Below are positions 8,007-34,666 of a stretch of DNA of 64,000 nucleotides, one piece after another. The DNA is from Natronorubrum tibetense GA33 (GTDB lineage Archaea > Halobacteriota > Halobacteria > Halobacteriales > Natrialbaceae). Position 1 is the first letter of the stretch, and the number at the start of each line of letters is the position of its first letter. Made by a program: the position numbers and the translations under genes. Below the pieces are notes generated by a model that saw nothing but the letters and a program-made list of their open reading frames with translations, made no database searches and was not told where the DNA came from. The stretch lies in the NCBI RefSeq assembly GCF_000383975.1, contig NZ_KB913017.1:3138265-3202264 (forward strand), given 5' to 3'.

Positions 8007-10880
8007 ATGAGCACTGAACGACACGACTCCGACCGAGCGACACGGGACGACGATCAGGAACGCTACACTCACGAAGAAGCCGCGGAACTGGACGAAAGTG
8101 CCTTCGACGGCGGCAGCGTCGGACGGCGCACCTTCTTGAGCGTCGCGGCAGCAACCGGTGTGGCACTCGCAGTACCGAGTACGGTATCGGCCACCGTCGA
8201 GCACGATGCGCTGACGGAACGGGCCGCCTTCGCCGTCAACGCTACTCCGGATGACTACGAGGTACCTGTCGTCATCACGTTCGAGGGCGGCGTTCCGGCG
8301 ACGTTCGAAGCGGCGTACACCGACCCCGATTGGGACGTCGACGACCAGACTGCGCCGCCGACGGCGGTGACGCGAACCGAGCCGACGGCGGCGGCACACG
8401 CCCACCTCGATGCAGACGAACTCGATTCGGTTCTCGACGAGTTCGGGGACGACATCGAGGGGGTAGGCTACTCCCCGGGGGCGAACCCGTGGTGGCACCT
8501 GGAGGACCCGTACGCAGACGGTGTCTTCCCGCCGGTCGAGGAATCCCGCGATTGGCTCTCGTACGAAGAATCCGTCCAGGGCATCCGATACCTCGAGGAG
8601 GAGGTGAGTCCCGACCGGATCAACTGCTACTCGATCGGACAGTCGCCCGGCTGGAACAACCAGTTCACCGGCGATAATCCCGATCCGAGTGACGTCTACG
8701 TCGCCGAGGTCACGAACGACGTCAACGACGAGGCGTCCTTCGCCGAGAAGGAGAAGGTCGTCTACTCCCTCAACATCCACGGCGACGAGCGCGCCGGCAC
8801 CGAGGCCGGCTGTCGCATCATCGAGGATATCGCCCGCGGCGAGGCCCCCGACTTCGAGGACCTGCTCGACGACATCGTTCTCCTCTTCCTGTTCACGAAC
8901 CCGGACGGCTGGGTCTCGCGGAAGCCCGAAACCGAGATCCCGTGGGTCGCGGGTCACGACTGGAACTTCCAGCGCGGCAACGCGTCGGGTCTCGACACGA
9001 ATCGACAGTATCCAACCATGGGCTGGACGGACCCGTCGTTCTGGCCCGCCGAACCCGAGGACACGCCCGACGTGCGTCCCGACGATCCCGAGGGTCGGGG
9101 CTACCAGGAGATGGTTCCGGACGCGCTGGCCATCGTCGAGCACTTCCGGGCGTACGACAACGTGGAGTTCCTCTGTGACTACCACGGGATGTACACCGCC
9201 GACCACATGGTGTTCAACCTCGAGACGAACGCCCCGTTCACCCACGACAAGACCCACGACTTAGACGAGGTGAGCATCCAGATCGGCGAAGCGATGGCCA
9301 AGGAGTGGGGCTCGGTCGAGACCGAACCGCTGGCGTCCGACATCATGGAGGCCGGTGAAACCGAGTACGGGGCCCCGTTCCTCCCCGAGGGCGACAGCTA
9401 CGAGGGTCTCCTCGACTGGGGGACGATCTACGACTCGCTGTCCTACCAGGTCACGGGTGCGTTCCTGGGTTGGGCCGGCCAGCCCGGGGCGTTCGGCGGC
9501 CTCGGTGCCGTCACCGTCGCCCCCGAGGTCATCATCTCGAATCACTTCGGATCCGCGATCAAGGAGTGGAAGCCCTACTGGTCGCGTCACTACGCCACCG
9601 CTTACCGTCTGTCGATGCGCGAGTACGCGCGGATGACCGCCGCGGAGACCGACGCGACCGTCGGGACCGGAGGCCAGGACACCGCCTACGTCACCTCGGA
9701 GACGCTGACCCGTCGGTCTGCGGATCTTTCGCACACCGACGAGAGCCCCGGTCAGGGCCGCGGGCCCGGGAGAGGCCGGGCCACCGCAGTGCAGCACCGC
9801 CACGAGACCATCCAGTCCGGACCTAGCGGCAGGGCGAGCGTCGACACGTCCGCCGTCGAGTCGTCGCACTCGCTGTTCGTCCACTTCCGGGGCCTCGACG
9901 ACGCGACCGAGGGAACGGTACGGCTCCACAACCCCGCCGGGAACGTCGTCCGCGAACTCGACCTCGCGGAACGGGCGGATCCGACCGCGACGGACGTCCC
10001 TGGACACGACTTCGAGGACTGGTTCGTCCGCCGCCCCGAGGGGGGCGACTGGCGCGTCGAGGTCGACGCCGACGCGGACGTCGACGTCCAGCTCACCCGC
10101 CTCGATTCCGAGGACGAACACCCCGACCCCGAAGAGGTCCTGGGGTACGAGCAACGCGAGTACGTCGTCAACCCGGTGCAGTTCTTCGCCGACCTCGAGC
10201 CGTACGTCGAAGACGGCGCGATGGACGAAATGAGCGTCCACCACGTCAGCCGCGGGCGATTGCTCCGAGGCAACTCCGGACAACGCCACTACGACAAACT
10301 CGTCGTCTCACACGACGACGGGATCGACGACTCCCGGTACATCGAAGCGATCGAAGCGTTCGTCGAGACCGGGGGTGATCTCGTCTTAACGGATAGCGGC
10401 GTCAACCTCCTCGGCACTCTAGATGTCGGCGACGCCGCCCAGCTCAGTGGCGACGACGTCAGCGATATCGAGGTCCAGTTCGCCAACCTCGAGGACCGCG
10501 ACTTCGATCACGATTTCCTCGCGGGGATTCGGCCCCGACAACAGGAGATGTGGAAGGGGTCACAGCTCGGCTACACGACCGGCGTCGACCAGCCGGCGAC
10601 CGTCGTCGACGAGGACGCCTTCCAGGGCGCTGGCGGTGAAGTCGCCGGGACGATCGGTGGCGAGGGCGTCGGTGCCGGCCGGCTCACCGCCGGCGACAGC
10701 GAGATCAACGTCCTCGGCTCCGCCCTGCCGCCGGCCCAGCAGACCGAGCTTCATCCGTTCGGCATGGGCGACTACGCGGTATCGTTTATGGGCCACACTC
10801 TGCTCTGCAACGCCCTCGGATTCGAACAGCGACGGTACGTTGCGGGGGAGCTGGTCGGAAGTTACGGGGAGATACGATAG
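8007..10880 (+). CDS. Tat-exported M14 zinc carboxypeptidase, large multidomain
   Basis: A 957-aa secreted peptidase that should remove C-terminal residues from peptides outside the cell. Residues 39-62 form a Tat signal (GRRTFLSVAAATGVALAVPS). The M14 domain carries the zinc pair H258 and E261 in NIHGDERAGTE, the third ligand H393 in DYHG, and the substrate-binding region LDTNRQYP. After residue about 600 comes a low-complexity G/R linker, then a beta-sandwich like pre-peptidase C-terminal domains (LHNPAGNVVRELDL...GGDWRVEVDA). The last domain has a Rossmann-like segment (LVVSHDDGIDDSRYIEA, TGGDLVLTDSG). The tail domains make it about twice the usual M14 length. It is monocistronic. Confidence 0.9.
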   Translation: MSTERHDSDRATRDDDQERYTHEEAAELDESAFDGGSVGRRTFLSVAAATGVALAVPSTVSATVEHDALTERAAFAVNATPDDYEVPVVITFEGGVPATFEAAYTDPDWDVDDQTAPPTAVTRTEPTAAAHAHLDADELDSVLDEFGDDIEGVGYSPGANPWWHLEDPYADGVFPPVEESRDWLSYEESVQGIRYLEEEVSPDRINCYSIGQSPGWNNQFTGDNPDPSDVYVAEVTNDVNDEASFAEKEKVVYSLNIHGDERAGTEAGCRIIEDIARGEAPDFEDLLDDIVLLFLFTNPDGWVSRKPETEIPWVAGHDWNFQRGNASGLDTNRQYPTMGWTDPSFWPAEPEDTPDVRPDDPEGRGYQEMVPDALAIVEHFRAYDNVEFLCDYHGMYTADHMVFNLETNAPFTHDKTHDLDEVSIQIGEAMAKEWGSVETEPLASDIMEAGETEYGAPFLPEGDSYEGLLDWGTIYDSLSYQVTGAFLGWAGQPGAFGGLGAVTVAPEVIISNHFGSAIKEWKPYWSRHYATAYRLSMREYARMTAAETDATVGTGGQDTAYVTSETLTRRSADLSHTDESPGQGRGPGRGRATAVQHRHETIQSGPSGRASVDTSAVESSHSLFVHFRGLDDATEGTVRLHNPAGNVVRELDLAERADPTATDVPGHDFEDWFVRRPEGGDWRVEVDADADVDVQLTRLDSEDEHPDPEEVLGYEQREYVVNPVQFFADLEPYVEDGAMDEMSVHHVSRGRLLRGNSGQRHYDKLVVSHDDGIDDSRYIEAIEAFVETGGDLVLTDSGVNLLGTLDVGDAAQLSGDDVSDIEVQFANLEDRDFDHDFLAGIRPRQQEMWKGSQLGYTTGVDQPATVVDEDAFQGAGGEVAGTIGGEGVGAGRLTAGDSEINVLGSALPPAQQTELHPFGMGDYAVSFMGHTLLCNALGFEQRRYVAGELVGSYGEIR

Positions 10881-17445: not shown

Positions 17446-19788
17446 ATGACAAACGAAATTTCATATCGCGAAAAGGGACGCGCAGTGTTCCTGGCCGCGC
17501 TTATGGTACTCTCTGTTGTCGCCATGTCCGCAGCGTTTGCGGGTGCGGCGGCGGCAAATGAGCACGCAGATAGGTCGCTTGACGCAACCGACCTCAATGG
17601 AGACGACGTATGGATCGGACAGCAAGTCGAATTCACGAACCTCAACGACCCTGCTGACCTGAAACAGGGCGACGAGGTCATCCAGAACCTCCGTGTCGGT
17701 CAAGACGGAACCGCTACTGTCGACACGACCGAACTCGACGAGGGTCGGTACTACATCAACCATGACGATGTGGACACCGGTTCTTTCTGGGTCAATGAGC
17801 AGGAGATTGATGTAGAATTCGAATCCTCTGTTGCTGGTCAGGACGACCCAGTTACCGTTAACTACGAAGACGTTAGTGATGTCGAACGATCTGACGGTAA
17901 CATCGCCCTTAATGTGACTGGTGAACTCGACGGCGAAACCCTCAGCGACGACGAACTCGCTGCGATCTTCACCGACAGCGAAGAGGTCGGCGATGAGACC
18001 GTCCAGATTGACGACCTCGACGTTGAGGATGACTTCGAAGCTGACTTCGCCGAAAGCGAAGTCGGTGACTACGAATTCACGTTCGATGTAACTGACACGA
18101 CGGCATCCGACAATGCTTCGGTCTCTGTGACCGACGACGATGCTGACTACGAATTCGTCAATGTGGAGGATGTCAACCAAGGTGACTTCGCTGAGATCAC
18201 CATCGGTGTCGAGCAGGCTAGCAGTGCCTCCGTTGTTCTCTACGAAGAGGACGTAGACTTCGCCTCGGGCGTTGAGGTGACCGACATTGAGGGTGACGAG
18301 GTCACTCTTCTGTACAACACGCACGCACCCAGCGACGACGAAGCGTGGACAGTCCACGATGACTCCGATGCTGAAGTGAGTGAAGCGTTCCACGGTGACC
18401 AGAAGATCGATGATCAGGCACTGCCAGTCCACAACTGGGACCTGAGCATCGGTCAGGGCGACCAGCTGGATGACCCGGTTGACCTCGAGGACTTCGAGGA
18501 TTTCGACCGTGACCGACTCGTCGTTAACGAGCACGCTGGCTTCGGTGACACGGTTAGCTCCACCGCACCAGCCGATGAAGATGTTGACGACTTCGAAGAC
18601 TTCCACGAGTACGCAACTGAGACGGACACCATCGCAGAGGGTGACCAGCTGTTCCTGACGCTCGAGGACTTCGGTGCCGATGGCGCAGTTGAGAACCTCG
18701 ACACTGATGAGTTCGTTGTTGAAATCGTTCAGGACGAATCGACAGTGCTTGGTGAAGACGACGTCACCTGGAACAGCAGCAACACCAGCCTGGATTTCGT
18801 CGAACTCCTTGACGATGACCTTGATGAGTACGACGGTGACCTGATCTTCGAAATCGACCTCGATGAACTCGACGGCTTCGAGTACGAAGATTCCGAACAC
18901 GAAGTCACCTTCACGGTGACTGACGACAACTACTACGTCGCTGACGATGACGAGTACGAGGCTGAACTCGACATCGACTTCGACGAGCGTACTCTCGAAT
19001 GGAACGATATCGACTCGCTCCCAGCAGAGTCTGACGCAACCGCATACGGTGAGACAAACGTCGCACCGGGTACGGAACTCGAAGCTGACGCAGACTCGCC
19101 AAGTGACGAGGGTGGCTTCGTCGACTACACCGACGCTGTTGTCGGTGACGACTACACCTTCGCAGCTGAGTTCGACCTCGAAGGCGAACAGGTTGGTTCG
19201 CTCTTCACCATTACCGCTGAAGACTCGACTGTCGACAGCGGAATCGCAGCAGACGATGCTGTCCTCGAGGACCTGACGCTCACCGGCGCTGACGATGCTG
19301 ACGCCCTCGAGCTCGGCGCTGACTACGACGCAGAGATCACCACCGAAGAGTCGACCGACATCGACGCTGTCGTTACGAACAACGACGCCGACGAAGTCAC
19401 GGTTGACCTCGAGCTCGAGCTCGACGGTGAGGTCTACGACGAAGAAGTCACTGTTGACGGAGAGGACTCCGAGACTGTGACGCTCACCACCGCCGACGGT
19501 GCAGACCTCGGCGAGGGTGAATTCGACTTCACCATCACCGCAGAGAGCGACTCTGACGACGCCTCCTACGACGGTACGCTGAACGTCGAAGAGGCTGCTA
19601 CGGACGATGATGATGACGACGACGGCGTTGAGGACGACTCCACTGAGGACGACTCCACTGACGCCACTGACGACGATGATGACGACGACGATGACGACGA
19701 CGATGACGGAACGCCCGGCTTCGGTGTCGCTGTCGCTGTCGTCGCTCTGCTCGCAGCCGCCATGCTGGCCCTGCGACGCCAGAACTAA
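17446..19788 (+). CDS. csg: S-layer surface glycoprotein (PGF-CTERM)
   Basis: A 780-aa cell-wall protein forming the surface lattice. The N-terminus YREKGRAVFLAALMVLSVVA is the haloarchaeal surface-glycoprotein signal peptide, cleaved after about residue 34 (AAAA|NE). The mature part is extremely acidic, beta-rich and contains four N-glycosylation sequons (NVT, NAS, NSS, NTS). Near the end is a Thr/Asp-rich spacer with a run of about ten aspartates, then PGF at the start of a 20-residue hydrophobic helix ending in RRQN. That is the PGF-CTERM signal processed by archaeosortase A and lipid-anchored. Codon use is shifted to A/T-richer codons than its neighbours, as in other very highly expressed haloarchaeal genes. 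Confidence 0.95.
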   Translation: MTNEISYREKGRAVFLAALMVLSVVAMSAAFAGAAAANEHADRSLDATDLNGDDVWIGQQVEFTNLNDPADLKQGDEVIQNLRVGQDGTATVDTTELDEGRYYINHDDVDTGSFWVNEQEIDVEFESSVAGQDDPVTVNYEDVSDVERSDGNIALNVTGELDGETLSDDELAAIFTDSEEVGDETVQIDDLDVEDDFEADFAESEVGDYEFTFDVTDTTASDNASVSVTDDDADYEFVNVEDVNQGDFAEITIGVEQASSASVVLYEEDVDFASGVEVTDIEGDEVTLLYNTHAPSDDEAWTVHDDSDAEVSEAFHGDQKIDDQALPVHNWDLSIGQGDQLDDPVDLEDFEDFDRDRLVVNEHAGFGDTVSSTAPADEDVDDFEDFHEYATETDTIAEGDQLFLTLEDFGADGAVENLDTDEFVVEIVQDESTVLGEDDVTWNSSNTSLDFVELLDDDLDEYDGDLIFEIDLDELDGFEYEDSEHEVTFTVTDDNYYVADDDEYEAELDIDFDERTLEWNDIDSLPAESDATAYGETNVAPGTELEADADSPSDEGGFVDYTDAVVGDDYTFAAEFDLEGEQVGSLFTITAEDSTVDSGIAADDAVLEDLTLTGADDADALELGADYDAEITTEESTDIDAVVTNNDADEVTVDLELELDGEVYDEEVTVDGEDSETVTLTTADGADLGEGEFDFTITAESDSDDASYDGTLNVEEAATDDDDDDDGVEDDSTEDDSTDATDDDDDDDDDDDDDGTPGFGVAVAVVALLAAAMLALRRQN

Positions 19789-21600: not shown

Positions 21601-23109
21601 ATGCTTACTGGGTGGCGATATCGAATCGTGAGCGTCCTCGGCGTGGTCGGGTTGACCATCGCCGCCGTGTTCGCCACCAACCACCCGTTCGCCCAGCACG
21701 TCTTCACGACGTACGTCCCCCTGTTCGATCGCCTCGAGGTGACCGTCCTGACTGGGAGCTCGTTCTACTGGGCCGTCGCCCTCACCGTCCTCGCCGTCAC
21801 GGCGTGTCTCCTACCGCTTTATCGCCCCCGCCCGCGTCGCCTCCTGGATACCGTCACGATGGCCCAGAAACGGGTGCTGGTCGCCGGACTCGGGCTCGCG
21901 GCCCTGGGCTACTTCAAGTGGTCCCACAGGCTGCCTCGCGCAACCCTGGTCATGATCGTCGGGCTTCTCGCGATACTGCTCCCGGCGTGGTTCGTCTGGA
22001 TCCGCCGACGACCGGCCGCGTCGGACGGCCGCACGCTGTTCGTCGGCGACGATCTGGCCCAGATCGAGCGTATTGCACCGGCCGTCAACGCCCCCGTGCT
22101 GGGCTATCTCTGCCCGTCGAGCGTCGGCTACCACGGGTTCGACGAGGACGATATCGACGGCCACGGCCCCCAAGCGACGACCGGCAACGTCAGAGCCGAC
22201 GGTGGCGTCGCCGTGGAGCGCCGTCAGACGGGTGGCCCCGAACCGAGACCCTCCCCCGACTCGACACTCGACGAGCCGCGAGCACTCGCCGGACTGACCC
22301 GACTCGGTGGGCTCTCGCGACTCGAGGACGTGCTCGTCGAGCGCGACATCGATACCGTCGTGCTCGCGTTTCGAGAGGCCGATCGGGCGGAATTTTTCGG
22401 CGCGCTCGACGCCTGTCACGAACACGGTGTCAACGCCAAGGTTCACCGAGAGTACGCTGACAGCGTGCTCGTCTCCCCGGGGGATGTTGGCGAACTGGTC
22501 GACGTGGATCTCGAGCCCTGGGATCCGCTTGACCACCTGTTCAAGCGCGTGTTCGACGTCCTGTTCGCGACGGTCGGGCTGCTCGTTTTCGCGCCGGTTA
22601 TGCTGTTGATCGCCGCTGCGATCAAATACGACAGCCCCGGGCCGGTTTTCTACAGCCAGGATCGGACGGCCGGGCTGGGCGAGACCTTCTCGGTCTACAA
22701 GTTCCGTTCGATGGTCCCCGAAGGTGAGGACGCGACGCCCACCGACGACGAGACCAACGATCGAATCACGCGCGTCGGCCGCGTCCTGCGGAAGACGCAT
22801 CTGGACGAACTCCCCCAGCTGTGGTCGATCTTCGTCGGCGACATGAGCGTCGTCGGCCCGCGCGCTGTCTGGACGGAAGAAGAGGAACTGCTCGAGCGAG
22901 ACGCACCGGCCTGGCGCAAGCGCTGGTTCGTGAAACCGGGGCTGACCGGGCTGGCCCAGATCAACGACGCGAACAGCACCGATCCGAACGCGAAGCTGCG
23001 GTACGACCTCGAGTACATCCGCCGACAGTCGTTCTGGGTCGACGTAAAGATCGTCGTCCGACAGGTCTGGAACGTGCTCGCGGACGTCTGGAAGATGGTT
23101 CGAGGGTAG
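21601..23109 (+). CDS. Polyprenyl-phosphate sugar-1-phosphate transferase (WbaP/bacterial sugar transferase type)
   Basis: A 502-aa membrane enzyme expected to transfer a sugar-1-phosphate from a nucleotide sugar to a polyprenyl phosphate, the priming step of surface glycan assembly. The N-terminal part has about four transmembrane helices. The middle (residues about 145-290) resembles a CoA-binding-like Rossmann region. The C-terminal catalytic domain begins DHLFKRVFDVLFATVGLLVFAP and shows the family motifs YSQDRTAGLG, YKFRSM, TRVGRVLRKTHLDELPQLW, and VGPRA, plus KPGLTGLAQIN. All are intact. It lies between the S-layer gene and the GlmU-GlmS-STT3 genes, supporting a role in cell-surface glycosylation. 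Confidence 0.92.
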   Translation: MLTGWRYRIVSVLGVVGLTIAAVFATNHPFAQHVFTTYVPLFDRLEVTVLTGSSFYWAVALTVLAVTACLLPLYRPRPRRLLDTVTMAQKRVLVAGLGLAALGYFKWSHRLPRATLVMIVGLLAILLPAWFVWIRRRPAASDGRTLFVGDDLAQIERIAPAVNAPVLGYLCPSSVGYHGFDEDDIDGHGPQATTGNVRADGGVAVERRQTGGPEPRPSPDSTLDEPRALAGLTRLGGLSRLEDVLVERDIDTVVLAFREADRAEFFGALDACHEHGVNAKVHREYADSVLVSPGDVGELVDVDLEPWDPLDHLFKRVFDVLFATVGLLVFAPVMLLIAAAIKYDSPGPVFYSQDRTAGLGETFSVYKFRSMVPEGEDATPTDDETNDRITRVGRVLRKTHLDELPQLWSIFVGDMSVVGPRAVWTEEEELLERDAPAWRKRWFVKPGLTGLAQINDANSTDPNAKLRYDLEYIRRQSFWVDVKIVVRQVWNVLADVWKMVRG

Positions 23110-23313: not shown

Positions 23314-23859
23314 CTATCGCTTTTCGGGCGGCTCGGGCGGTTCGAACGCGGCAGCGAGCACCGTCCAACCCCGCGTCTCGGTGATCTCCTCGAGCGTCCG
23401 CTCCGAACGCAGTCCCGAAATCGAAATCAGTACGAGGACCGCGTGCGCGACGATCGATACCGTCCCTGGTCGACCGAGCGCAAGGGAGACGACCAGCGAA
23501 CCGAGTACCGCCGCGGTCATCGCCAGCCCGACGACCCGCAACGGCCGAACCCGAAACGCCGCGTCGACTCGAGCGGCGACGGCGGCCGTTTTCGACGATT
23601 CCGCGGCGTCCGAAACCCCCTCGAGACAGCGGTCGAGAAGTCGGATGAACGGCCCGACCGTGTACGTCTCGCGGAGGTCGATGACGATCACGTCCGGCTC
23701 GGGTTCGGTCGTGAACCAGCGATACAGCCGCGAGTGACGAACGAAGCGCGCGAGCGTTCGGACACCGCCAGTGAGCCGCGACTGCGAGACTCCCCGCCGA
23801 AGTCGCTCTTCGAGGGTTTCGAGCGTCGATTTCGGGGAGTCGGCGTTCGAATCGAGCAT
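23314..23859 (-). CDS. Haloarchaeal membrane protein of unknown function
   Basis: A 181-aa protein. The N-terminal half is charged with a DVIVIDLRETYTVGPFI segment; residues about 105-150 hold two adjacent transmembrane helices (VVGLAMTAAVLGSLVVSLAL and SIVAHAVLVLISISGL). The tail is proline-rich (EPPEPPEK). It begins 2 nt after the stop of the DUF4330 gene, so the two are surely co-transcribed. This suggests a membrane-associated pair near surface-glycan genes; no known family is recognised. Confidence 0.75.
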   Translation of the reverse strand: MLDSNADSPKSTLETLEERLRRGVSQSRLTGGVRTLARFVRHSRLYRWFTTEPEPDVIVIDLRETYTVGPFIRLLDRCLEGVSDAAESSKTAAVAARVDAAFRVRPLRVVGLAMTAAVLGSLVVSLALGRPGTVSIVAHAVLVLISISGLRSERTLEEITETRGWTVLAAAFEPPEPPEKR

Positions 23860-23861
23860 GA

Positions 23862-24983
23862 TCAGTCGTCGACGATCCAGACCCGTTCCTCGACGGACGT
23901 TACGCCGAAGTCGAGGTAGACGGTGTCGCCGTTGTTGAGAGCGTCTCCTTTGAATCGGGGGCCTAGTTCAGTGTCTCGAGTCTGCAATTCGACGGTGAGC
24001 GTCACGTCGTCTCGCGTCGGATGCTCGTGCTCGTGGAGTTGGCCGTCCTCGCTTTCGACGACGACCGACGCGGGTTCGCGCTCGACGTCTTCGATCGTGG
24101 CCCACGTCTCGCCGCCGGCGGTCTCGGTCAGTCCGGGCTCGAACAGACTCGCCTCGCGGTCGCTCAGTTTCTCGAGGTCGATTTCGACGGTCGTCGTCGC
24201 TGGCTCTCCGGTCTCTTCGATGGTCTCCGTTTCGAGCACGTCCAACATGAGATCGTAGTCGGCGGTCGAGAGCGGGATCACTGACCCGGATTCGACCGGC
24301 GCGTCTCCATACCGAAGATCCGCCCCTCGCTCGAGGGTCGTCAGCGTTGCGCCGACGAACACTCGGTGTTGCTCGTCACTGACGGGGTAGACGGAGACCG
24401 TTTCGACCGTCGCGACGGTGTCGTCACCGAACGTGACCTCGTCGCCGACCCGAACGTCTGCGGCGGCGGACGGCGAGAGCGTCGTCTCGAGTAGCACGTC
24501 GGTCTCGGTGCGCGGGAGGTCCGTTCCCTCGTCTTCGACGGCGTCGATACCGCCGGTGGCGGCGTACTCGCCCGTGTCGATCGAGACGTTCTGTCCGGGG
24601 GCGAACTCTTGATCGCCGAAGGCGTAGGTTCCGTTCTCGAACTGCGTTCCCTCGATCTCCGTTCGGACGGTCACGTGTGCCTCACTGCTCGAAACCGGCG
24701 TCGCGTACACGTCGGTAACGGTGAGCGTGTGGGGATAGTCGTCGTGAGCCATTTCGTCTCCGACCGAGATATCGTCGGCCGTCGACGACAACTGTGTCCC
24801 GAGATCGATAGTCGCGTAGCGAGTCTCGATGTGAGGTTCGTCGGTCTCGGTCTCTTCGCTTGCCCCGAGCGTCCCGACGGCCGCGACGCCGGCGACGAGG
24901 ACTGCGAGGACGAGGCAGACGGCGAGCGCATCGACGACGTTGACGGCCCCGAAGAGGTTCCCGTCTTCGTCGATTAGCTCCAT
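23862..24983 (-). CDS. DUF4330-type membrane-anchored protein
   Basis: A 373-aa protein with one N-terminal transmembrane helix (DALAVCLVLAVLVAGVAAVG) after the motif MELIDEDGNLFGAVNVVD, which is the DUF4330 opening. The exterior part is a series of beta-rich repeats: three related modules containing VGDEMAH or VGDEVTFGDDTV and TVTDVYATPVSS or TVSVYPVSDEQHRVFVG. DUF4330 proteins have no established function; in other prokaryotes they occur near exopolysaccharide genes (family knowledge, from memory). It is the first gene of a two-gene operon with the protein at 23314-23859. Confidence 0.85.
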   Translation of the reverse strand: MELIDEDGNLFGAVNVVDALAVCLVLAVLVAGVAAVGTLGASEETETDEPHIETRYATIDLGTQLSSTADDISVGDEMAHDDYPHTLTVTDVYATPVSSSEAHVTVRTEIEGTQFENGTYAFGDQEFAPGQNVSIDTGEYAATGGIDAVEDEGTDLPRTETDVLLETTLSPSAAADVRVGDEVTFGDDTVATVETVSVYPVSDEQHRVFVGATLTTLERGADLRYGDAPVESGSVIPLSTADYDLMLDVLETETIEETGEPATTTVEIDLEKLSDREASLFEPGLTETAGGETWATIEDVEREPASVVVESEDGQLHEHEHPTRDDVTLTVELQTRDTELGPRFKGDALNNGDTVYLDFGVTSVEERVWIVDD

Positions 24984-26148: not shown

Positions 26149-28602
26149 TTAGCTCGAGTCCCCGTCGCCGTCCGCGCCGACCTCGAGGACCGCACCCTCC
26201 AGTACGTCCGACTCGGCCACGTCGACGCTGTCGTCGCCGACCGCGTACGTCCCGTCGTAGGGAACCGTCGCCTCGAGTTGACCGTCGTCTCCGACGGTCA
26301 CGTCGCGCTCGTAGGTGAACGACTCGTCGTCGACCGACACCGAGGTACTGACGGACACCGTCTCGCCCGGTTCGGCGTCCGTTTCGATCGTCGCACCCGG
26401 AACGACGGCGAACGCCGCCGCAGACCGATCGTCGGCCGCGTAGAGCAACTGGTAGTGGGCGAGCGCCTCGCCGCCGTCGCCGCCGGCTCCGAGGTCCTCG
26501 AGCAGTTTCGCGTGTGCGCTCTCGGCCGGCAGCTCGCCCTCCCGTTCGGTTACGACGACGTAGCCGACCCTGTCCTCGAACTGGCTGTAGTTGCCGTCCG
26601 GATCGTTGCCGAACCGGAAGTCGTCGAAGTTCGACATCGCGTAGCCGTATCTCTCCGACTCCCCGCTCACGTGGTAGTTGTACATCCGGTTGTCGCCCCA
26701 CTCGCTCAGCACGAAGCTGTCGGGGTACTCCCGGTCAGCGTCGGCGGCGTGCTCGTCGATCGTCAGTGCGGCTTCGAACTCCGAATCGCCGTGAGCGACC
26801 TGCCCGGAGAGTCCGGGAACGTAGAGCAGGCTGAACCCGCAGACGAGAAGACCGATGCCGAGGACGTATCCCAGCTTCCGTGCGTCGGGCAGCGTGATCG
26901 AGGGCTCGTCGCTGCCGCCGTCCGCGGCCACCGCGTTCGGTCGTTCAGTTTCTCGCCGGAACGGGAACGGTCGCCGCGCCAGGTCGATCGTCGAGAGCGC
27001 GTAGACGAAACCGACGCCGCCCAGAACTGACAGCGGAACCGCGAACTGTGCGGCGAACCGAACCTGAATCGCGGCGAGTAGCATGAGAGTCGACGTGTAT
27101 ACCGCAAGCAGCAACCACGCCGGTTCGTACTGGCGAGAGACGTGCCAGACGGCCCAGATCAACACCGCGACCCCGAGATAGAAGCCGACCCCGAGCTGGA
27201 TCAGCGGTCCGAAAATCACCGCGTACTCGGGAGTAAACAACGACGACGTCTCCGTGATGCCTTCCCGGAGGAGCAGATCATCAGCACGAGACCGCGCCTC
27301 GGCCCAGTCGTCCGGTCGAAGCCGGCGCAGCGCGTAGAGTCCCGCGCCGACGACGGCCGCCTCGAGCGCGAGGAGTCCGCCGACGTGAAGCTCGAACTGT
27401 CGCCACAGGTCGCCGAGTGCGAGTACGACGACGCTACCCCCGAGCACCATCGCGGGCGTGTACGCGACGAACCCGGAGTGCCAGCCCCAGTTGGTGTAGA
27501 GCCAGACCGAGATCGCCGTCCCGATTCCGATCCCGACCAGCACTGGGAGGTTCGCCAGCGTTGGCGAAAGTCCCTCGCGGGCGTCGACGACGGCTCGGAG
27601 GCCGACGTACGCGGCCAACGGTACAAACAGCAGTGAGGAACCGCCCCACAGGTGGGCCGACACACCCAGCGCAACACCCAGAACCACCGCAGTGAGCCAC
27701 GTTCCGGGCGACGAGAGGTGGTCACGAACCGCGTCCCGACCGGCGTTCGTCTCACGACGACGGGTCAGATCGACCGCGAGCCACGCCAGCGCCAGGAGCG
27801 TCACCCCGAGCCAGAGGTACTGGTGTAACCGGTGTTCGAGAAATCCTACCTGCGTGTACACGGCGTGTACGGGCGTGACCGCGAGCAACACCACGGAGGC
27901 AATCCCGACTCTGACGTCCCTCGTCACCACGACCGCCAGCGCGTAGATAACGACGGCGAGCGCGACGGAGGCGACGACGGGCAGCCAGGCCGCGACCGCA
28001 TCGGCGGCCCACTGATCCCCGCCTAACAACGTCGCGAACCACCAGTTCAGCCCGTGGGTTAGCGGCCGCCGAGCGGCGGCCCCGGCCGGCAGTTCCGCGA
28101 GGACGCCGATGTCCGTCGGACTCGTCGATTCGGCCAGCAGTTCGTTCGTCCAGTACCGGTAATAGTACGGGTCGTTGCCCGGCGAGACGACGTGGTCGCC
28201 GCGGAACACCGACTGGAACTGCGTGAGCCGCATCGCGACGACCAGCAAGAGCGCGCCAACTAATCCGGCGAGTGCCCGTCGGTCGCCCCAGACGCCGAGG
28301 TCGATCGCCGAGCGGAGATCGAACGAGTCTTCGTCGGAGTCCGACTCCACCGCCTCGCCCGACAGCACGGCCCGGACAACGGCCGCGTCGGCGACCCGGT
28401 ACTCGCCGTCAGCCTTCTCAACGATCCCGCGAGAGACGAGTTCGCCGAACGTTCCGGAATCAAGCGAGAGGTCGTCGAAGGTCCAGGTTTCGGCTCCGGC
28501 GTCGACCTCGAGTGCGGTCTCGAGCGCCCGTTCCGCCTCGTCGTGATCCGCGAGAAACGAGGCGGTCGCATCGGCGAGCGCGCTCGAGTCGGCGTCGGTC
28601 AT
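26149..28602 (-). CDS. STT3/AglB-like membrane glycosyltransferase with N-terminal winged-helix-like domain
   Basis: An 817-aa protein. Residues about 22-82 look like a winged helix (TFDDLSLDSGTFGELVSRGIVEKADGEYRV). From 110 onward there are about 12 transmembrane helices. The first periplasmic-side loop carries FRGDHVVSPGNDPYYYRYW (D144), like the STT3 DPYY motif; a later loop reads VGFLEHRLHQ, matching the second STT3 acidic/His motif. The soluble C-terminal domain should contain WWDYG but instead has SEWGDNRMYNYHVSGES at residues 633 onward. It is a divergent oligosaccharyltransferase-like enzyme, perhaps a second glycosylation route next to classical AglB. It is followed by an OB-like protein and a YdjM-like protein in one operon; glmS lies 100 bp upstream. 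Confidence 0.82.
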   Translation of the reverse strand: MTDADSSALADATASFLADHDEAERALETALEVDAGAETWTFDDLSLDSGTFGELVSRGIVEKADGEYRVADAAVVRAVLSGEAVESDSDEDSFDLRSAIDLGVWGDRRALAGLVGALLLVVAMRLTQFQSVFRGDHVVSPGNDPYYYRYWTNELLAESTSPTDIGVLAELPAGAAARRPLTHGLNWWFATLLGGDQWAADAVAAWLPVVASVALAVVIYALAVVVTRDVRVGIASVVLLAVTPVHAVYTQVGFLEHRLHQYLWLGVTLLALAWLAVDLTRRRETNAGRDAVRDHLSSPGTWLTAVVLGVALGVSAHLWGGSSLLFVPLAAYVGLRAVVDAREGLSPTLANLPVLVGIGIGTAISVWLYTNWGWHSGFVAYTPAMVLGGSVVVLALGDLWRQFELHVGGLLALEAAVVGAGLYALRRLRPDDWAEARSRADDLLLREGITETSSLFTPEYAVIFGPLIQLGVGFYLGVAVLIWAVWHVSRQYEPAWLLLAVYTSTLMLLAAIQVRFAAQFAVPLSVLGGVGFVYALSTIDLARRPFPFRRETERPNAVAADGGSDEPSITLPDARKLGYVLGIGLLVCGFSLLYVPGLSGQVAHGDSEFEAALTIDEHAADADREYPDSFVLSEWGDNRMYNYHVSGESERYGYAMSNFDDFRFGNDPDGNYSQFEDRVGYVVVTEREGELPAESAHAKLLEDLGAGGDGGEALAHYQLLYAADDRSAAAFAVVPGATIETDAEPGETVSVSTSVSVDDESFTYERDVTVGDDGQLEATVPYDGTYAVGDDSVDVAESDVLEGAVLEVGADGDGDSS

Positions 28603-28702: not shown

Positions 28703-30496
28703 TCACTCCACCGTCACGCTCTTCGCCAGATGTCGCGGTTTGTCGATCGACCGACCCAGCCGGTGGGCGATCCAGTAGGAAAGCAGTTGCAACTGGACGT
28801 TCGCGGTGATCGCTGCGCCGATTTCGTTCGACGCCGGTACCTCGAGGACGTGATCCGCGTAGCGTTCGACATCGGTTTGCCCGTCGGTCACCGCCACGAC
28901 GGGCGCGTCGCGGGCCTCGACCTCCTTGACGTTACTGACCGTCTTGTGTGCCCGTTCGTCGTCTCCGGTGACGAGCGCAAACACCGGCGTTTCCTCAGTT
29001 ACGAGCGCCAGCGGCCCGTGTTTCAACTCGCCGGCGGCGAACCCCTCGGCGTGGCGGTAGCTGATCTCCTTGAGTTTGAGCGCGCCCTCGAGCGCGACGG
29101 GATACTGGTAGCCCCGACCGATGAAAAAGAAGGCGTCCGACTCGGCGTACTCCGCGGCGATCTCGGTCGCCTGCGACGTATCGAGAACGGTCTGAACCTG
29201 GTCGGGAACGTCGCGCAACGCGCGAATCACGTCGTGGTTCGACCCGTCGCTCAGCCGACACGCGAGCAGCGTCAATGCGACCTGCTGGCTCGCAAAGGTC
29301 TTCGTCGCGGCGACGCCGATTTCGGGACCCGCGCGAATGTACAAGGCGTGGTCGCACTCCCGTGCCGCCGAACTGCCGACGGTGTTCGTCACGGCGACCG
29401 TCTCCGCGCCTGCGCGGTTTGCCTCGCGCAACGCGCGCATCGTATCCGCGGTCTCGCCGCTCTGGGTGACGCCGACGACGAGCGTCGACGAGTCGACCGG
29501 GATCCGGTCGGTCGAGTACTCGCTGGCGAGAAACGACTGAGCCGGGACGCCACGGTCGCGTAACAGCGTGGCCCCGAACAGCGCGGCGTGATAGGACGTT
29601 CCGCAGGCGACGAACTGTACCGGCGACGACGACTCGAGCTCGTCGAGTTCCTCGAGCGTCACCGTCCCGGTCAGTTCGTCCACGCGGCCGCGAAGACACT
29701 GTCGCAGCGCCGTCGGCTGTTCGTGGATCTCCTTGCGCATGTAGTGGTCGTAGCCGCTCTTGCCGGCGTCTTCGGCGTCCCATTCGATTGTCTCGACGGA
29801 CGTTTCGACGACGTTTCCGTTCGAGTCCGTGACGACGACCGCTTCGGGCGAGAGTCGCGCGAACTCCCCGTCCTCCAGATAGACGACGCGGTCGGTGTAG
29901 TCGATGAAGGCCGGCGCGTCGCTCGCGAGGTAGTAGCCGTCGTCGCCGATCCCGAGCACGAGCGGCGACGCCTGTCGGGCGGCGTGGATCGTCTCCGAAC
30001 CGGCGAAGACGGCCGCGACGGCGTAGCTCCCCTCGATCCGATCGATGGCAGTCCGAAACGCCGTTTCGGGGCTCGCACCCGCCGAGAGGGCCTGACTGAT
30101 CAGGTGCGGGACGACTTCGGTGTCCGTCTCGCTCTCGAACGTGACGCCGTCGGCCGTCAGCTCGTCGCGCAGTGATTGGTAGTTCTCGATGATTCCGTTG
30201 TGAACGACGGCCACTCGTCCTTCGCCGTCCGTATGGGGATGCGCGTTGACGTTCGAGGGCGGCCCGTGCGTGCTCCAGCGCGTGTGCCCGATGCCAATCG
30301 AGCGTCCGCGCAGTTCCGCGGTCGGCAGCGCCGACTCGAGCGCGGCGAGTTCGCCCTCCCGCTTGTGAACCGCGAGCGTTCCGTTCGCCAGCGCTACACC
30401 TGCAGAATCGTAGCCGCGGTACTCGAGGCTGGAGAGCCCGTTCAGCAGGACGTCGATAGCGTCGCTCGAGCCGACGTACCCGACGATGCCGCACAT
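28703..30496 (-). CDS. glmS: Glutamine-fructose-6-phosphate aminotransferase (isomerizing)
   Basis: A 597-aa enzyme making glucosamine-6-phosphate from fructose-6-phosphate and glutamine, the first committed step to UDP-GlcNAc. It has the N-terminal glutaminase domain (MCGIVGYVG, Cys2 nucleophile; RWSTHGPPS; HNGIIEN). Two SIS domains follow, the first with FVACGTSYHAA and TQSGETADT, the second with GRGYQYPVALEGALKLKEISY and GELKHGP. It ends KPRHLAKSVTVE, the standard family C-terminus. Its start shares one base with the glmU stop (TGATG), so the two are translationally coupled. Confidence 0.97.
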   Translation of the reverse strand: MCGIVGYVGSSDAIDVLLNGLSSLEYRGYDSAGVALANGTLAVHKREGELAALESALPTAELRGRSIGIGHTRWSTHGPPSNVNAHPHTDGEGRVAVVHNGIIENYQSLRDELTADGVTFESETDTEVVPHLISQALSAGASPETAFRTAIDRIEGSYAVAAVFAGSETIHAARQASPLVLGIGDDGYYLASDAPAFIDYTDRVVYLEDGEFARLSPEAVVVTDSNGNVVETSVETIEWDAEDAGKSGYDHYMRKEIHEQPTALRQCLRGRVDELTGTVTLEELDELESSSPVQFVACGTSYHAALFGATLLRDRGVPAQSFLASEYSTDRIPVDSSTLVVGVTQSGETADTMRALREANRAGAETVAVTNTVGSSAARECDHALYIRAGPEIGVAATKTFASQQVALTLLACRLSDGSNHDVIRALRDVPDQVQTVLDTSQATEIAAEYAESDAFFFIGRGYQYPVALEGALKLKEISYRHAEGFAAGELKHGPLALVTEETPVFALVTGDDERAHKTVSNVKEVEARDAPVVAVTDGQTDVERYADHVLEVPASNEIGAAITANVQLQLLSYWIAHRLGRSIDKPRHLAKSVTVE

Positions 30497-31698
30497 CAGG
30501 ACCGAACCTCCGTTTCAGAGTTGATCGTCCCGCTGACGGTGGTTCCGGACCCGATGACGGCACTCGAGCCGACGATCGTCCCCGGCGCGTACGTCACGCC
30601 GCCCTCGTCGCGGACGCGGTCGGCGATGAGCGCGCCAAGATCCTCGTTTCGGTGGATCCGATCACCGACGTGGACGTCACCCGGGCCGCCGACGACGGTG
30701 GATCCGGCACCAACCCGGACGCCGCGGCCGGTCACGCAGTCGACGAGGGTGGCGTTCGGACCGATCCGCGTATCGGCGTCGACGACGCTGTGCTCGCAGA
30801 CGACGTTCGAGCCGACGGTAACGTTCTCACCGAGACAGACGTTGGGACCGATCACCGCGCCGGGCCCGACGACGCAATCGTCGGCGATGACGACGGGACC
30901 ACGGATCGTCGCACTCTCGTGAATTCGGGCGGATGCCGCGGTCGTGCTCTCGACGCCGTCATCGCTCTCGAGGAGGACATCGGCGACCTCGAGTAAGTCC
31001 CACGGATAGGTCGCGTCGATCCAAATACCCTCCGAGCGCACCCCTCGAATCGGCTCGTCTCCGTCGATCAGCGCGGTGAGTCCGTCCACGAGCGAGTGCT
31101 CGCCGCCCCGCGAGTTCGCCGATCGGACGGTGTCGAACGCACGCTTCTCGAGGGCGTAAACGCCCGCGTTGAGCAGGTAGCTTCGTCCGTCGGTCGGATT
31201 CTCCACGATTTCGGCGACGCGACGGGACGACATCGACGGCTCGTCGGGCTCGAGGAGGACGCCGCCGTATTCGGTGACGTCGCGGTGCTGGATCGTACCG
31301 ATGGTCGCCGCGGCGTCGTCCGTCTCGTCGTGTGCGTCGATGACGTCCTCGACGATCCGCTGGTCGACGAGCTGGTCGCCGTTCACCACGAGCGACGGAC
31401 CCGTCACCGTCGATTCGGCAGCCGCCAGCGCGTGACCGCTCCCGAGCTGTTTCTCCTGAGTCACGTACGTCACGGGGACGTCGCGGTACGTCGGGCCGAA
31501 GTGCGACTGGACGCGATTCCGTCCGTAGCCGACGACCACCGTTAGCTCCGTGATTCCGGCAGCGATCAGCGCGTCGAAGACGTGGGCCAGAATCGGGTCG
31601 GTGGCGGCGGGAAGCATGGGCTTCGGTCGGTGCTCTGTCAGCGGCCGGAGCCGCTTTCCTTCCCCCGCGGCGAGGACGATAGCGGATCGAACGGTCAT
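30496..31698 (-). CDS. glmU: GlmU-like bifunctional sugar-1-phosphate nucleotidyltransferase/acetyltransferase
   Basis: A 400-aa enzyme predicted to acetylate glucosamine-1-phosphate and join it to UTP, giving UDP-GlcNAc. The N-terminal nucleotidyltransferase domain has AIVLAAGEGKRLRPLTEHRPKPMLP, VNGDQLV, and GIWIDATYPWDLLE. The C-terminal half is a left-handed beta-helix of hexapeptide repeats (IRGPVVIADDCVVGPGAVIG through VVGSSAVIGSGTT). It matches archaeal GlmU/ST0452-type proteins. It is the first gene of the operon glmU-glmS; ATG 31698 is the only start giving the LAAG loop at the right place. Confidence 0.93.
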   Translation of the reverse strand: MTVRSAIVLAAGEGKRLRPLTEHRPKPMLPAATDPILAHVFDALIAAGITELTVVVGYGRNRVQSHFGPTYRDVPVTYVTQEKQLGSGHALAAAESTVTGPSLVVNGDQLVDQRIVEDVIDAHDETDDAAATIGTIQHRDVTEYGGVLLEPDEPSMSSRRVAEIVENPTDGRSYLLNAGVYALEKRAFDTVRSANSRGGEHSLVDGLTALIDGDEPIRGVRSEGIWIDATYPWDLLEVADVLLESDDGVESTTAASARIHESATIRGPVVIADDCVVGPGAVIGPNVCLGENVTVGSNVVCEHSVVDADTRIGPNATLVDCVTGRGVRVGAGSTVVGGPGDVHVGDRIHRNEDLGALIADRVRDEGGVTYAPGTIVGSSAVIGSGTTVSGTINSETEVRS

Positions 31699-31964: not shown

Positions 31965-33290
31965 TCAGTCGTCCGCGGCGACGGCCTCGCCCTCGCTCGT
32001 CGACTCCGCGCGCTCGAGATCCTCGAGATACTCGTCGGCATCGAGTGCGGCCTTCGATCCCATTCCGGCGGCCGTCACGGCCTGCTGGTAGTGGAAGTCG
32101 ACGACGTCGCCGGCGCCGAAGATGCCGGGGACGTCAGTTTCGGTCTGGCCGCCGCCGTCGCCGCCCTGGGTTCGGAGGTAGCCTTCGTCGTCCATCTGGA
32201 CTCCGGTGCCCTCGAGGTACGCCGTGTTCGGCGTGTGACCGATCGCGAAGAAGACGGCGCCGACGTCGAACTCGAACTCCTCGGTCTCGGGGTCGTCGAG
32301 GCGATCCGTGGGGTGGCCCTTGTCGTTTCGCACGAGGGTGACGTGGTCGACGCCCTCCGCCTGCGAGCCGTGGAGTTCGGTCACTTCCGTGTTCTTCATA
32401 ATCTCGATCTCGCCCGCCTCGACCTTCTCGTGGACGCGGTTGACCCAGTACTGTTCGGCGCGGAACTCCTCGCGTCGGTGGGCGATGTAGACGGTGTCGG
32501 CGAACTTCGTGAGGAAGGTCGCCTCCTCCATCGCGGCGTCGCCGCCGCCGACGACGAGCATGTCCTCGTCGCGGAAGAACGCGCCGTCGCAGGTGGCACA
32601 CGTCGAGAGACCGTACCCCATCAGTTCGTCCTCGCCGGGGATACCGAGCGTTCGCGCGCTCGCACCGGAGGCGGCGATGACGGCGTCGGCGGTGTAGACG
32701 TCCCCGTTGGTCAACTCGACGCGGAACGGCTTGGTGTCCGCGTCGACAGATTCGATGATGCCGTTTTTCAGCTCGGCGCCGAACTGCGTGGCCTGCTCTT
32801 TCATGTTGTTGACCAGTTCGGGGCCGCTGATCCCCTCGGGGAAGCCGGGGTAGTTCGCCACGTCGGTGGTCAGGGTGAGCTGGCCGCCGGGTTCGTCGCC
32901 CTCGATGACTAACGGCTCGTTGTCACCGCGACCGGCGTAGATCGCCGCCGTCAGGCCCGCGATTCCGGTTCCGGCGATGATCAGTTTTCGGTGTTCGAGC
33001 ACTTCACCGTCCTCGGTGTCGCTTTCGACGCCGAGTTTCGCGTCCAGTTCGCCCGTCTCGTCGAGGGCACTGGTGTCGTCCCAGCCGCCGATCAGTTCGT
33101 CGTCGATGAACACTTCGGGGGCCGTCTTGCGCCCGTTTGCCCGCTCGACCATCTCCTCGAACAGGTCGTCGTCGCCCGTGACGTTGTACGTCTCGTACTC
33201 GACTCCCTTCGCGTCGAAGAGGTGCTTGGCTTTGTCGCAGTACGGACAGTCCTCTTTGGTATAGATCTCGACTCGAGGCTGTTCGCTCAT
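31965..33290 (-). CDS. Glutaredoxin-thioredoxin reductase fusion
   Basis: A 441-aa single-chain redox enzyme. Residues 1-85 are a glutaredoxin domain with CPYC at 15-18 and TAPEVFIDDELIGGWDD. Residues 100-420 are a thioredoxin-reductase-type flavoprotein with GTGIAG (FAD) at 107-112, the redox-active CATC at 231-234, GGGDAA (NAD(P)H) at 248-253, and GIFGAGDVVDFHYQQ near the end. The fusion implies the reductase passes electrons directly to its own glutaredoxin. ATG 33290 is chosen because it begins the glutaredoxin strand. In-frame sequence beyond it is arginine-rich and implausible. No operon partner. Confidence 0.93.
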   Translation of the reverse strand: MSEQPRVEIYTKEDCPYCDKAKHLFDAKGVEYETYNVTGDDDLFEEMVERANGRKTAPEVFIDDELIGGWDDTSALDETGELDAKLGVESDTEDGEVLEHRKLIIAGTGIAGLTAAIYAGRGDNEPLVIEGDEPGGQLTLTTDVANYPGFPEGISGPELVNNMKEQATQFGAELKNGIIESVDADTKPFRVELTNGDVYTADAVIAASGASARTLGIPGEDELMGYGLSTCATCDGAFFRDEDMLVVGGGDAAMEEATFLTKFADTVYIAHRREEFRAEQYWVNRVHEKVEAGEIEIMKNTEVTELHGSQAEGVDHVTLVRNDKGHPTDRLDDPETEEFEFDVGAVFFAIGHTPNTAYLEGTGVQMDDEGYLRTQGGDGGGQTETDVPGIFGAGDVVDFHYQQAVTAAGMGSKAALDADEYLEDLERAESTSEGEAVAADD

Positions 33291-33370
33291 GGCTACGGAT
33301 TGGGACAGAGTGCCTAAACCGCTTGCGTTCTCAGCAACGCTGCGCTCTCCTGTGACACCGAGTAACGTCG

Positions 33371-34666
33371 TTAGGCCTCGGTAGATCGCGCCGCGTCGAC
33401 GAACTCGACGACGACGGCGACGTCGCGGTCGGTCCGATCCTCGAGGGCCGTTTCGAGATCGGAGACGAGATTCGGGTACGGCGCGTCGGCGGGTCGCTGG
33501 ACGACGACGGTCACCTCCGTTCCGTCGTCCACGCCGACGCCGACGAACTCGGTTCGCACTTCGACGAGTTCGAGGTCGGCGTACTCGTCGTCGTCGAGGA
33601 CGGTTCGAACGTCGTCGTTGACGCTGTTCTCGTAGAGGACGTACTGACCGAGCACGAAACCGCCCAGAGAGAGGACGACCACGCCCAGAACGACGGCGAC
33701 GGCGAGCGTGCCGACCCAATCGCCGGAGATATTCTCCCGAATCGAGCCGCGCGTCCAGCCGTCGGGTCGATACCCCAGATACCAGAAGACGGCGAGCCCG
33801 GAGAACAGGATCGACGTGGCGTTGACCGCGACCAGGACGAACGCACCGAGCGCGACGGAGACGTTACCCCAGGCCATCCCGATACCGACCGCCGCGGCCG
33901 CCGGAATGAGGGCGACGGCGATCATCACACCGACCAGCGAGACCGGAATCGCCGTCGCGAGACCGAACGCACCCGCGGCGCCGGCACAGATTCCCACGAC
34001 GATAGCGAGCAGTCCGGGCGAGATCCGGTTCTGGACCTGGACGATGGCCGTGATGTCGATCGTCGAGGGGACGATCCCACCCGAGCGGACGATCCAGGCG
34101 AAGACGAACGCGCTGGCGATGGCAACCACGAGCCCGACGGCCAGCGACGTGAGCCCGTCGACGATCATCTTCCGGTCGTCGAGCACGAGCCCGACTGTTC
34201 CCGTCAGCGCGGCGCTGACCTGCGGCGCGATCACCATCGAACCGACGACGATCGCCGGCGAGTCGAGCAACAGTCCCGCGGTCGCGACGATCGCGCTCAA
34301 CACGGTCATCGCGTAGTAGGTGACGCGGCCGGGCGTCATGTTCATCGCTCGAGATCGGATCTCCTCGTGGGCGATGCTGTCGTCTTCCTCCTGGCCGTTG
34401 ACGTATCGCTCCTCGAGTTCGTCGATCCGCGGCGTTCGCGCCGTCTCGATCGAGGAAACGACGACGAACTGGTCGTCGATTCCGGCCTCGCGAAGTGACG
34501 ACAGCACGCGTTCGACTGCCTGGGGCGGAAGCGGGAAGCTCACGAGTTCGCCGTCGGTCCCGTCGCCGGCTTCGGCAGTCCGGACGTAGTCGATCCCCTC
34601 GTCGTCGAGGACCGACAACGCGTCGTCGGATCTGTCGTCCGGCACGAACAGTTCGATCAGTCGCAC
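33371..34666 (-). CDS. DUF389 (TIGR00341) membrane protein
   Basis: A 431-aa protein. The N-terminal soluble domain (about 130 residues, RLIELFVPDDRSDDALSVLDD) precedes a block of about seven transmembrane helices beginning MNMTPGRVTYYAMTVLSAIVA. That block contains the DUF389 signature DSPAIVVGSMVIAPQVSAALTGTV. A C-terminal cytosolic beta-alpha domain follows (YADLELVEVRTEFVGVGVD). The family function is unknown. I prefer GTG 34666 as the start: the DUF389 N-terminal strand begins there, whereas the ATG at 34777 adds 37 residues and runs toward the neighbouring promoter. It is divergent from DUF357. Confidence 0.88.
   Translation of the reverse strand: MRLIELFVPDDRSDDALSVLDDEGIDYVRTAEAGDGTDGELVSFPLPPQAVERVLSSLREAGIDDQFVVVSSIETARTPRIDELEERYVNGQEEDDSIAHEEIRSRAMNMTPGRVTYYAMTVLSAIVATAGLLLDSPAIVVGSMVIAPQVSAALTGTVGLVLDDRKMIVDGLTSLAVGLVVAIASAFVFAWIVRSGGIVPSTIDITAIVQVQNRISPGLLAIVVGICAGAAGAFGLATAIPVSLVGVMIAVALIPAAAAVGIGMAWGNVSVALGAFVLVAVNATSILFSGLAVFWYLGYRPDGWTRGSIRENISGDWVGTLAVAVVLGVVVLSLGGFVLGQYVLYENSVNDDVRTVLDDDEYADLELVEVRTEFVGVGVDDGTEVTVVVQRPADAPYPNLVSDLETALEDRTDRDVAVVVEFVDAARSTEA

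Follow-up and report, generated by a model that had tools for sequence, protein, structure and literature searches.

Introduction

Which acceptor could be served by an oligosaccharyltransferase-like protein in which the motif that reads the glycosylation sequon has been replaced? This question is raised by an 817-residue relative of STT3/AglB (hereafter the paralog) encoded in the window, the whole 64-kb stretch of Natronorubrum tibetense DNA that was analysed. Protein N-glycosylation outside eukaryotes was first discovered in Halobacterium. In Halobacterium salinarum, Asn-2 of the S-layer protein bears one of two N-glycans, a repeating-unit glycan with a GalNAc linkage and a dolichol-diphosphate carrier; its attachment is blocked by bacitracin and persists when Ser-4 is replaced by Val, Leu or Asn (PMC2952790; PMC8674786). 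Only one oligosaccharyltransferase gene has been recognised in this species, and no enzyme is known for Asn-2 (PMC2952790; PMC8674786); its characterised AglB pathway uses a monophosphate carrier (PMC11980604).

An AglB-like core with an altered WWDYG site

The open reading frame of the paralog is genuine and has full-length relatives in many haloarchaea, the closest named one being from Natronorubrum texcoconense (93% identity). The archaeal STT3 model TIGR04154 matched the membrane core with 132 bits, below its cut-off of 450. As a phmmer search of the PDB with just the paralog sequence yielded no relative, we turned to the predicted fold. The AlphaFold2 model (pLDDT 87.4, pTM 0.81) bore out the kinship with AglB for which a structural comparison had been proposed in the initial annotation, its best PDB match being Archaeoglobus fulgidus AglB (7e9s, E 2.5e-20). 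STT3 and PglB came next, and DPY19, ArnT and PMT gave weaker matches than AglB and STT3. The features discussed here are collected in Table 1.

Table 1. Features of the paralog and of its surroundings, in window coordinates
Feature	Position	Strand	Remark
STT3/AglB-like paralog, 817 aa	26149..28602	-	ATG start
N-terminal winged-helix-like domain, aa 1-85	28348..28602	-	homologous to N-terminal domain of haloarchaeal EMC3/TMCO1-family insertase
First catalytic motif N143-D144-P-Y	28165..28176	-	Asp equivalent to D47 of AfAglB / D56 of PglB
Second DXD-type motif G253-F-L-E256-H257-R258	27829..27846	-	GFADHH in the other subfamily
TIXE-type motif I-T-E451-T	27247..27258	-	equivalent to E360 of AfAglB
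Q-V-R515-F516-A	27052..27066	-	common to AglB and the paralog
S633-E-W635-G-D-N638-R639-M-Y-N642-Y in place of WWDYG	26674..26706	-	
AglB_L1-like beta domain, aa 736-785	26248..26397	-	Pfam AglB_L1, 31.6 bits, above cut-off
GlmS, glutamine--fructose-6-phosphate transaminase	28703..30496	-	735 bits, above cut-off; upstream of the paralog, co-directional
GlmU-like sugar-1-phosphate nucleotidyltransferase, hexapeptide repeats	30496..31698	-	
Bac_transf polyprenyl-phosphate sugar-1-phosphate transferase	21601..23109	+	predicted starter of diphosphate-linked glycan
DUF4330 protein	23862..24983	-	travels with the paralog family
Protein adjoining DUF4330	23314..23859	-	small 'unk9' family travelling with the paralog
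S-layer glycoprotein, PGF-CTERM	17446..19788	+	sole TIGR04207 signal-peptide match in the genome; predicted acceptor
Codon of Asn38, predicted mature N-terminal Asn	17557..17559	+	...AGAAAA-N-E-H, not a sequon; predicted glycosylation site

Both membrane motifs that had been read from the sequence, a DPYY-type first motif and FLEHR as the second, are present, as N143-D144-P-Y and within G253-F-L-E-H-R, respectively. In an alignment of 61 family members, N143, D144, H257 and R515-F516 are kept in 61/61, whereas position 256 is Glu or Asp in 60/61 and the TIXE-type Glu, E451, is found in 60/61. Near the donor site, three positions change together between two subfamilies, of which one has mostly Y249/E256/R258 and the other R249/D256/H258; from the aligned sequences, an arginine seems to have moved place.

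The WWDYG motif is absent from the 817-residue paralog, and no WWDYG-like DNA occurs anywhere in the 64-kb window. As initially annotated, EWGDNRMYN (residues 634-642) occupies the WWDYG position of AglB. The nonapeptide is in part a family trait: W635, R639 and N642 (61/61) and N638 (57/61) are conserved, whereas its E and D vary across the family. The alteration, with the consensus V-x-S-x-W-G-x-N-R-M-Y-N-Y-F-V at this site, is common to the 61 members and thus not due to chance.

A profile alignment of the paralog family with 32 classical AglBs (E 3e-38) had all core motifs in register, with D144 on the first-motif Asp and E451 on the TIXE Glu. As to a WWDYG equivalent elsewhere in the protein, the same alignment superimposes the altered motif precisely on the WWDYG site, and the Asp and first Trp of WWD are lost in every family member. 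The WWDYG Asp faces D637 in the MAFFT alignment and G636 in HHalign; residue 637 is variable among the members, so this Asp is kept in neither alignment. The known enzymes use two acidic residues to bind the amide of the acceptor Asn and WWD to bind the Ser/Thr at +2 (PMC7226087). The core with D144 and E451 being kept and WWD lost, the paralog appears to retain the Asn-activating machinery without the sequon reader. The pocket reading the +2 Ser/Thr is replaced by W-G-x-N-R-M-Y-N-Y, so that an N-X-S/T sequon should not be needed.

Distribution of the paralog alongside classical AglB

Full-length paralogs were found in 56/97 haloarchaeal genomes (matches with E < 1e-40 among genomes G000-G096), and classical AglB in all 97 of the same genomes. 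The separate classical AglB that the initial annotation suggested looking for exists in the paralog's own genome and has both WWDYG and TISE unaltered (878 bits). The paralog is an addition to AglB, not a substitute for it. In a phylum-wide sample, full-length matches (> 700 bits) were confined to the window's own order, and outside this order the STT3 core alone matched, with at most 103 bits. By these sequence searches the family is restricted to haloarchaea, and in the open-access literature it is undescribed so far.

A second copy in the same genome (L007:9739-12183; genome C1:3772741-3775182) is 55% identical and has the same EWGDNRMYN; an RmlA-like nucleotidyltransferase gene lies before it and a Bac_transf gene after it. 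In another genome, G067, a broken remnant of the paralog (C1:214025-214499, locus L218) lies less than 1 kb from a csg-type S-layer gene, and an intact copy is located about 50 kb from the remnant. We also asked whether the paralog family might supply the low-salt enzyme that is missing in Haloferax volcanii. It cannot, because the sole homolog reported from that species is AglB (PMC3871713), and the idea was abandoned.

Gene neighbourhood

The description of the region as one with UDP-GlcNAc synthesis and an S-layer gene was accurate, the window containing GlmS, a GlmU-like nucleotidyltransferase and a PGF-CTERM S-layer gene. To place this neighbourhood in a wider frame, we built neighbour families from the paralog loci and counted them at paralog loci (two overlapping samples of 41 and 80), 21 AglB loci and 20 random loci. 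Bac_transf genes were present in 56% and 52% of the paralog loci as opposed to 0/21 AglB and 0/20 random loci, and were found on the same strand directly downstream of the paralog in 26 loci. BacA/UppP (17% and 12%), UDP-sugar dehydrogenase (17% and 18%) and S-layer genes (15% and 24%) were likewise seen at paralog loci, against none at AglB or random loci. AglB loci carry instead GT4 (90%), GT2 (67%) and sulfatase (48%) genes. Sugars linked to polyprenyl diphosphate are the products of Bac_transf enzymes, and polyprenyl diphosphate is the compound that UppP recycles.

With their Bac_transf, glycosyltransferase, flippase and, in some cases, Wzy_C genes, the paralog loci resemble exopolysaccharide clusters, as would suit a WaaL-like ligase that transfers a diphosphate-linked polysaccharide to a lipid or another glycan and is linked to the N-terminal Asn of the S-layer only indirectly. 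We consider such a ligase unlikely because the catalytic Glu and the first-motif Asp, which bind the acceptor Asn amide in AglB and PglB (PMC7226087), are kept, and because it leaves unexplained why presence of the paralog goes with Asn, and this at mature positions 1-2 only (see below).

Several neighbours deserve mention in their own right. The DUF4330 protein and the small protein next to it (window 23314-24983, minus strand) travel with the paralog in about one fifth of the loci, often with BacA/UppP, and are possibly further parts of the pathway. A single open reading frame at 31965-33719 (minus strand) has a glutaredoxin domain fused ahead of thioredoxin reductase, and a 957-residue protein at 8007-10880 (plus strand) combines an M14 carboxypeptidase domain with a weak DUF4350-like stretch.

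The paralog is associated with an N-terminal Asn of the S-layer protein

The starting hint was that S-layer proteins encoded near the paralog seemed to begin with Asn. In each genome we took the best protein with the TIGR04207 S-layer signal and predicted its cleavage site by a simple A-x-A rule only: the first A-x-A located 28 or more residues into the signal was used, further Ala were removed, and Asn was scored in the first two residues. An earlier rule, which cut too early within the signal peptide, was replaced before the hold-out was drawn. Among genomes G000-G096, Asn occupied mature position 1 or 2 in 37/55 with the paralog and 2/40 without it (p 1.8e-10). For the hold-out, with rule and prediction written beforehand, 30 + 30 new genomes, mostly of the same genera, were used, giving 21/30 with and 5/30 without the paralog (p 6e-5). 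Stratification by genus, across the 17 genera in which both states occur, gave p 5.5e-7. Combined, the counts are 58/85 and 7/70 (p 4e-14, with congeneric species not fully independent). The exceptions are 27/85 paralog genomes whose chosen protein has no Asn at positions 1-2, and 7/70 paralog-free genomes whose chosen protein does.

The paralog and the S-layer gene are often close, and S-layer regions are swapped between strains (PMC11078007). S-layer alleles and the paralog might hence merely share the same variable islands, with no functional link. We give very little credence to such hitch-hiking, as the association is undiminished in the subset of genomes where the two genes are unlinked (51/74 vs 7/70), persists within genera and is confined to two residues. 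Indeed, mature positions 3-22 showed no difference between paralog and paralog-free genomes. Of all residues, Asn separates the two groups most strongly, by a wide margin; in the genomes lacking the paralog it is Asp that is most enriched (30/70 vs 12/85).

The N-terminal Asn is not part of an N-X-S/T sequon in 44/58 cases, sequons occurring at about the rate that an S/T content of 21% predicts. The paralog could still be ordinary in function, a second N-X-S/T oligosaccharyltransferase whose WWDYG differs only cosmetically, given its AglB-like overall fold and the one motif Trp it retains. This is improbable, however, considering that the profile alignment has the WWD Asp and the first Trp gone throughout the family, that a normal AglB always accompanies the paralog and that S/T is not enriched at +2 of the N-terminal Asn. 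More doubtful still is an O-glycosyltransferase reusing the AglB fold for Ser/Thr of surface proteins: the loss of the sequon pocket and the weaker structural matches to PMT-type proteins would be in keeping with it, but every one of the closest structures belongs to an enzyme of N-glycosylation, E451 and D144 are conserved, and mature positions 1-2 in paralog genomes are Ser-depleted with Thr not enriched.

The initial annotation had predicted an acceptor other than N-X-S/T. The family-wide motif change, the presence of AglB in every genome surveyed and the mostly non-sequon N-terminal Asn support this prediction and suggest the function. Since genomes with the paralog tend to have Asn at the start of their S-layer protein, the paralog probably adds a second type of glycan at this site.

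With a csg probe, the N-terminus of the H. salinarum S-layer protein, which served as a search query only, we located the paralog about 5 kb from a csg homolog in two Halobacterium-type genomes (68% and 53% identity). In three such genomes, the paralog sits with GlmS, one or more nucleotidyltransferases and Bac_transf. One of them has the mature S-layer start A-N-A-D, that is, Asn-2 without a sequon.

An N-terminal domain shared with an EMC3/TMCO1-type insertase

The N-terminal winged-helix-like unit noted initially is recovered in the AlphaFold2 model as a predicted helix-helix-helix-strand-strand-helix arrangement, and residues 1-85 have no Pfam match of their own. Searching the paralog's own genome with a profile of this domain returned only the two paralogs and one 314-residue EMC3/TMCO1-type protein. 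The counterpart of the latter in another haloarchaeon matches Pfam EMC3_TMCO1 (158 bits) and adjoins genes reading as secY and adk. A profile comparison between the N-terminal domains of the paralog and the insertase gave E 5.5e-11. Haloarchaeal EMC3/TMCO1 proteins (e.g., L238:799-1743) begin with a winged-helix-like domain that no Pfam family matches and that, within the genomes searched, recurs only in the paralog family.

As the shared domain suggests, the N-terminal domain may hold the paralog near SecY, at a docking site on the translocon or the ribosome. We tentatively entertain the possibility that the enzyme is specific for a position rather than a sequence. The EMC3/TMCO1-type domain would dock by the Sec translocon, and the Asn exposed by cleavage of the S-layer signal would be glycosylated with a diphosphate-linked polymer.

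Discussion

The paralog is probably a second, haloarchaea-specific oligosaccharyltransferase that transfers a diphosphate-linked glycan to the N-terminal Asn of the S-layer protein with no sequon needed. This reading best explains the observed fold, intact core, motif exchange, distribution, neighbourhood and link to the N-terminal Asn, from which we infer catalysis, donor type, acceptor and docking. In such a pathway, GlmS and the nucleotidyltransferases would supply amino-sugar nucleotides, and Bac_transf would load the first sugar-phosphate onto dolichol phosphate. Glycosyltransferases would extend the diphosphate-linked glycan, and a flippase would turn it outward. The AglB-type membrane core of the paralog would bind a metal ion and the polyprenyl (dolichol) diphosphate-linked glycan, and the N-terminal domain near SecY would let it meet the new N-terminus. 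After signal cleavage, the glycan would be moved to the amide of the mature N-terminal Asn of the S-layer protein, and BacA/UppP, where present, would recycle the released carrier.

The family provides a concrete and widespread candidate for the H. salinarum-type Asn-2 transferase, which has been missing for decades. If the proposal is true, an oligosaccharyltransferase independent of N-X-S/T would change the prediction of glycosylation sites in haloarchaea, and a natural enzyme for glycan attachment at a protein N-terminus would be at hand.

Among known systems, AglB (TIGR04154; Archaeoglobus fulgidus 7e9s/3wak) shares with the paralog the fold, the first DXD Asp, the second DXD-type motif, the TIXE Glu, the RF motif and part of the C-terminal beta domain. 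Unlike AglB, the paralog lacks WWDYG, has an extra N-terminal domain and resides in another gene neighbourhood, and its soluble part from the motif to the end comprises 182 residues as opposed to about 400 in AglB. The C-mannosyltransferase DPY19, PMT and ArnT, which are GT-C enzymes without WWDYG, have the GT-C membrane core in common with the paralog, but match it structurally much more weakly than AglB and STT3 do. The EMC3/TMCO1-family (DUF106) insertase encoded near secY is alike in its homologous N-terminal domain, some 80 residues long, whereas the remainder of that protein is unrelated to the paralog. The likeness to the second N-glycosylation pathway of H. salinarum comprises the N-terminal Asn, for which the +2 Ser is dispensable in H. 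salinarum, and the amino-sugar supply, and it is in related Halobacterium-type genomes that the paralog lies near the csg homolog. The diphosphate carrier of H. salinarum likewise has its parallel in the carrier that Bac_transf and UppP suggest for the paralog.
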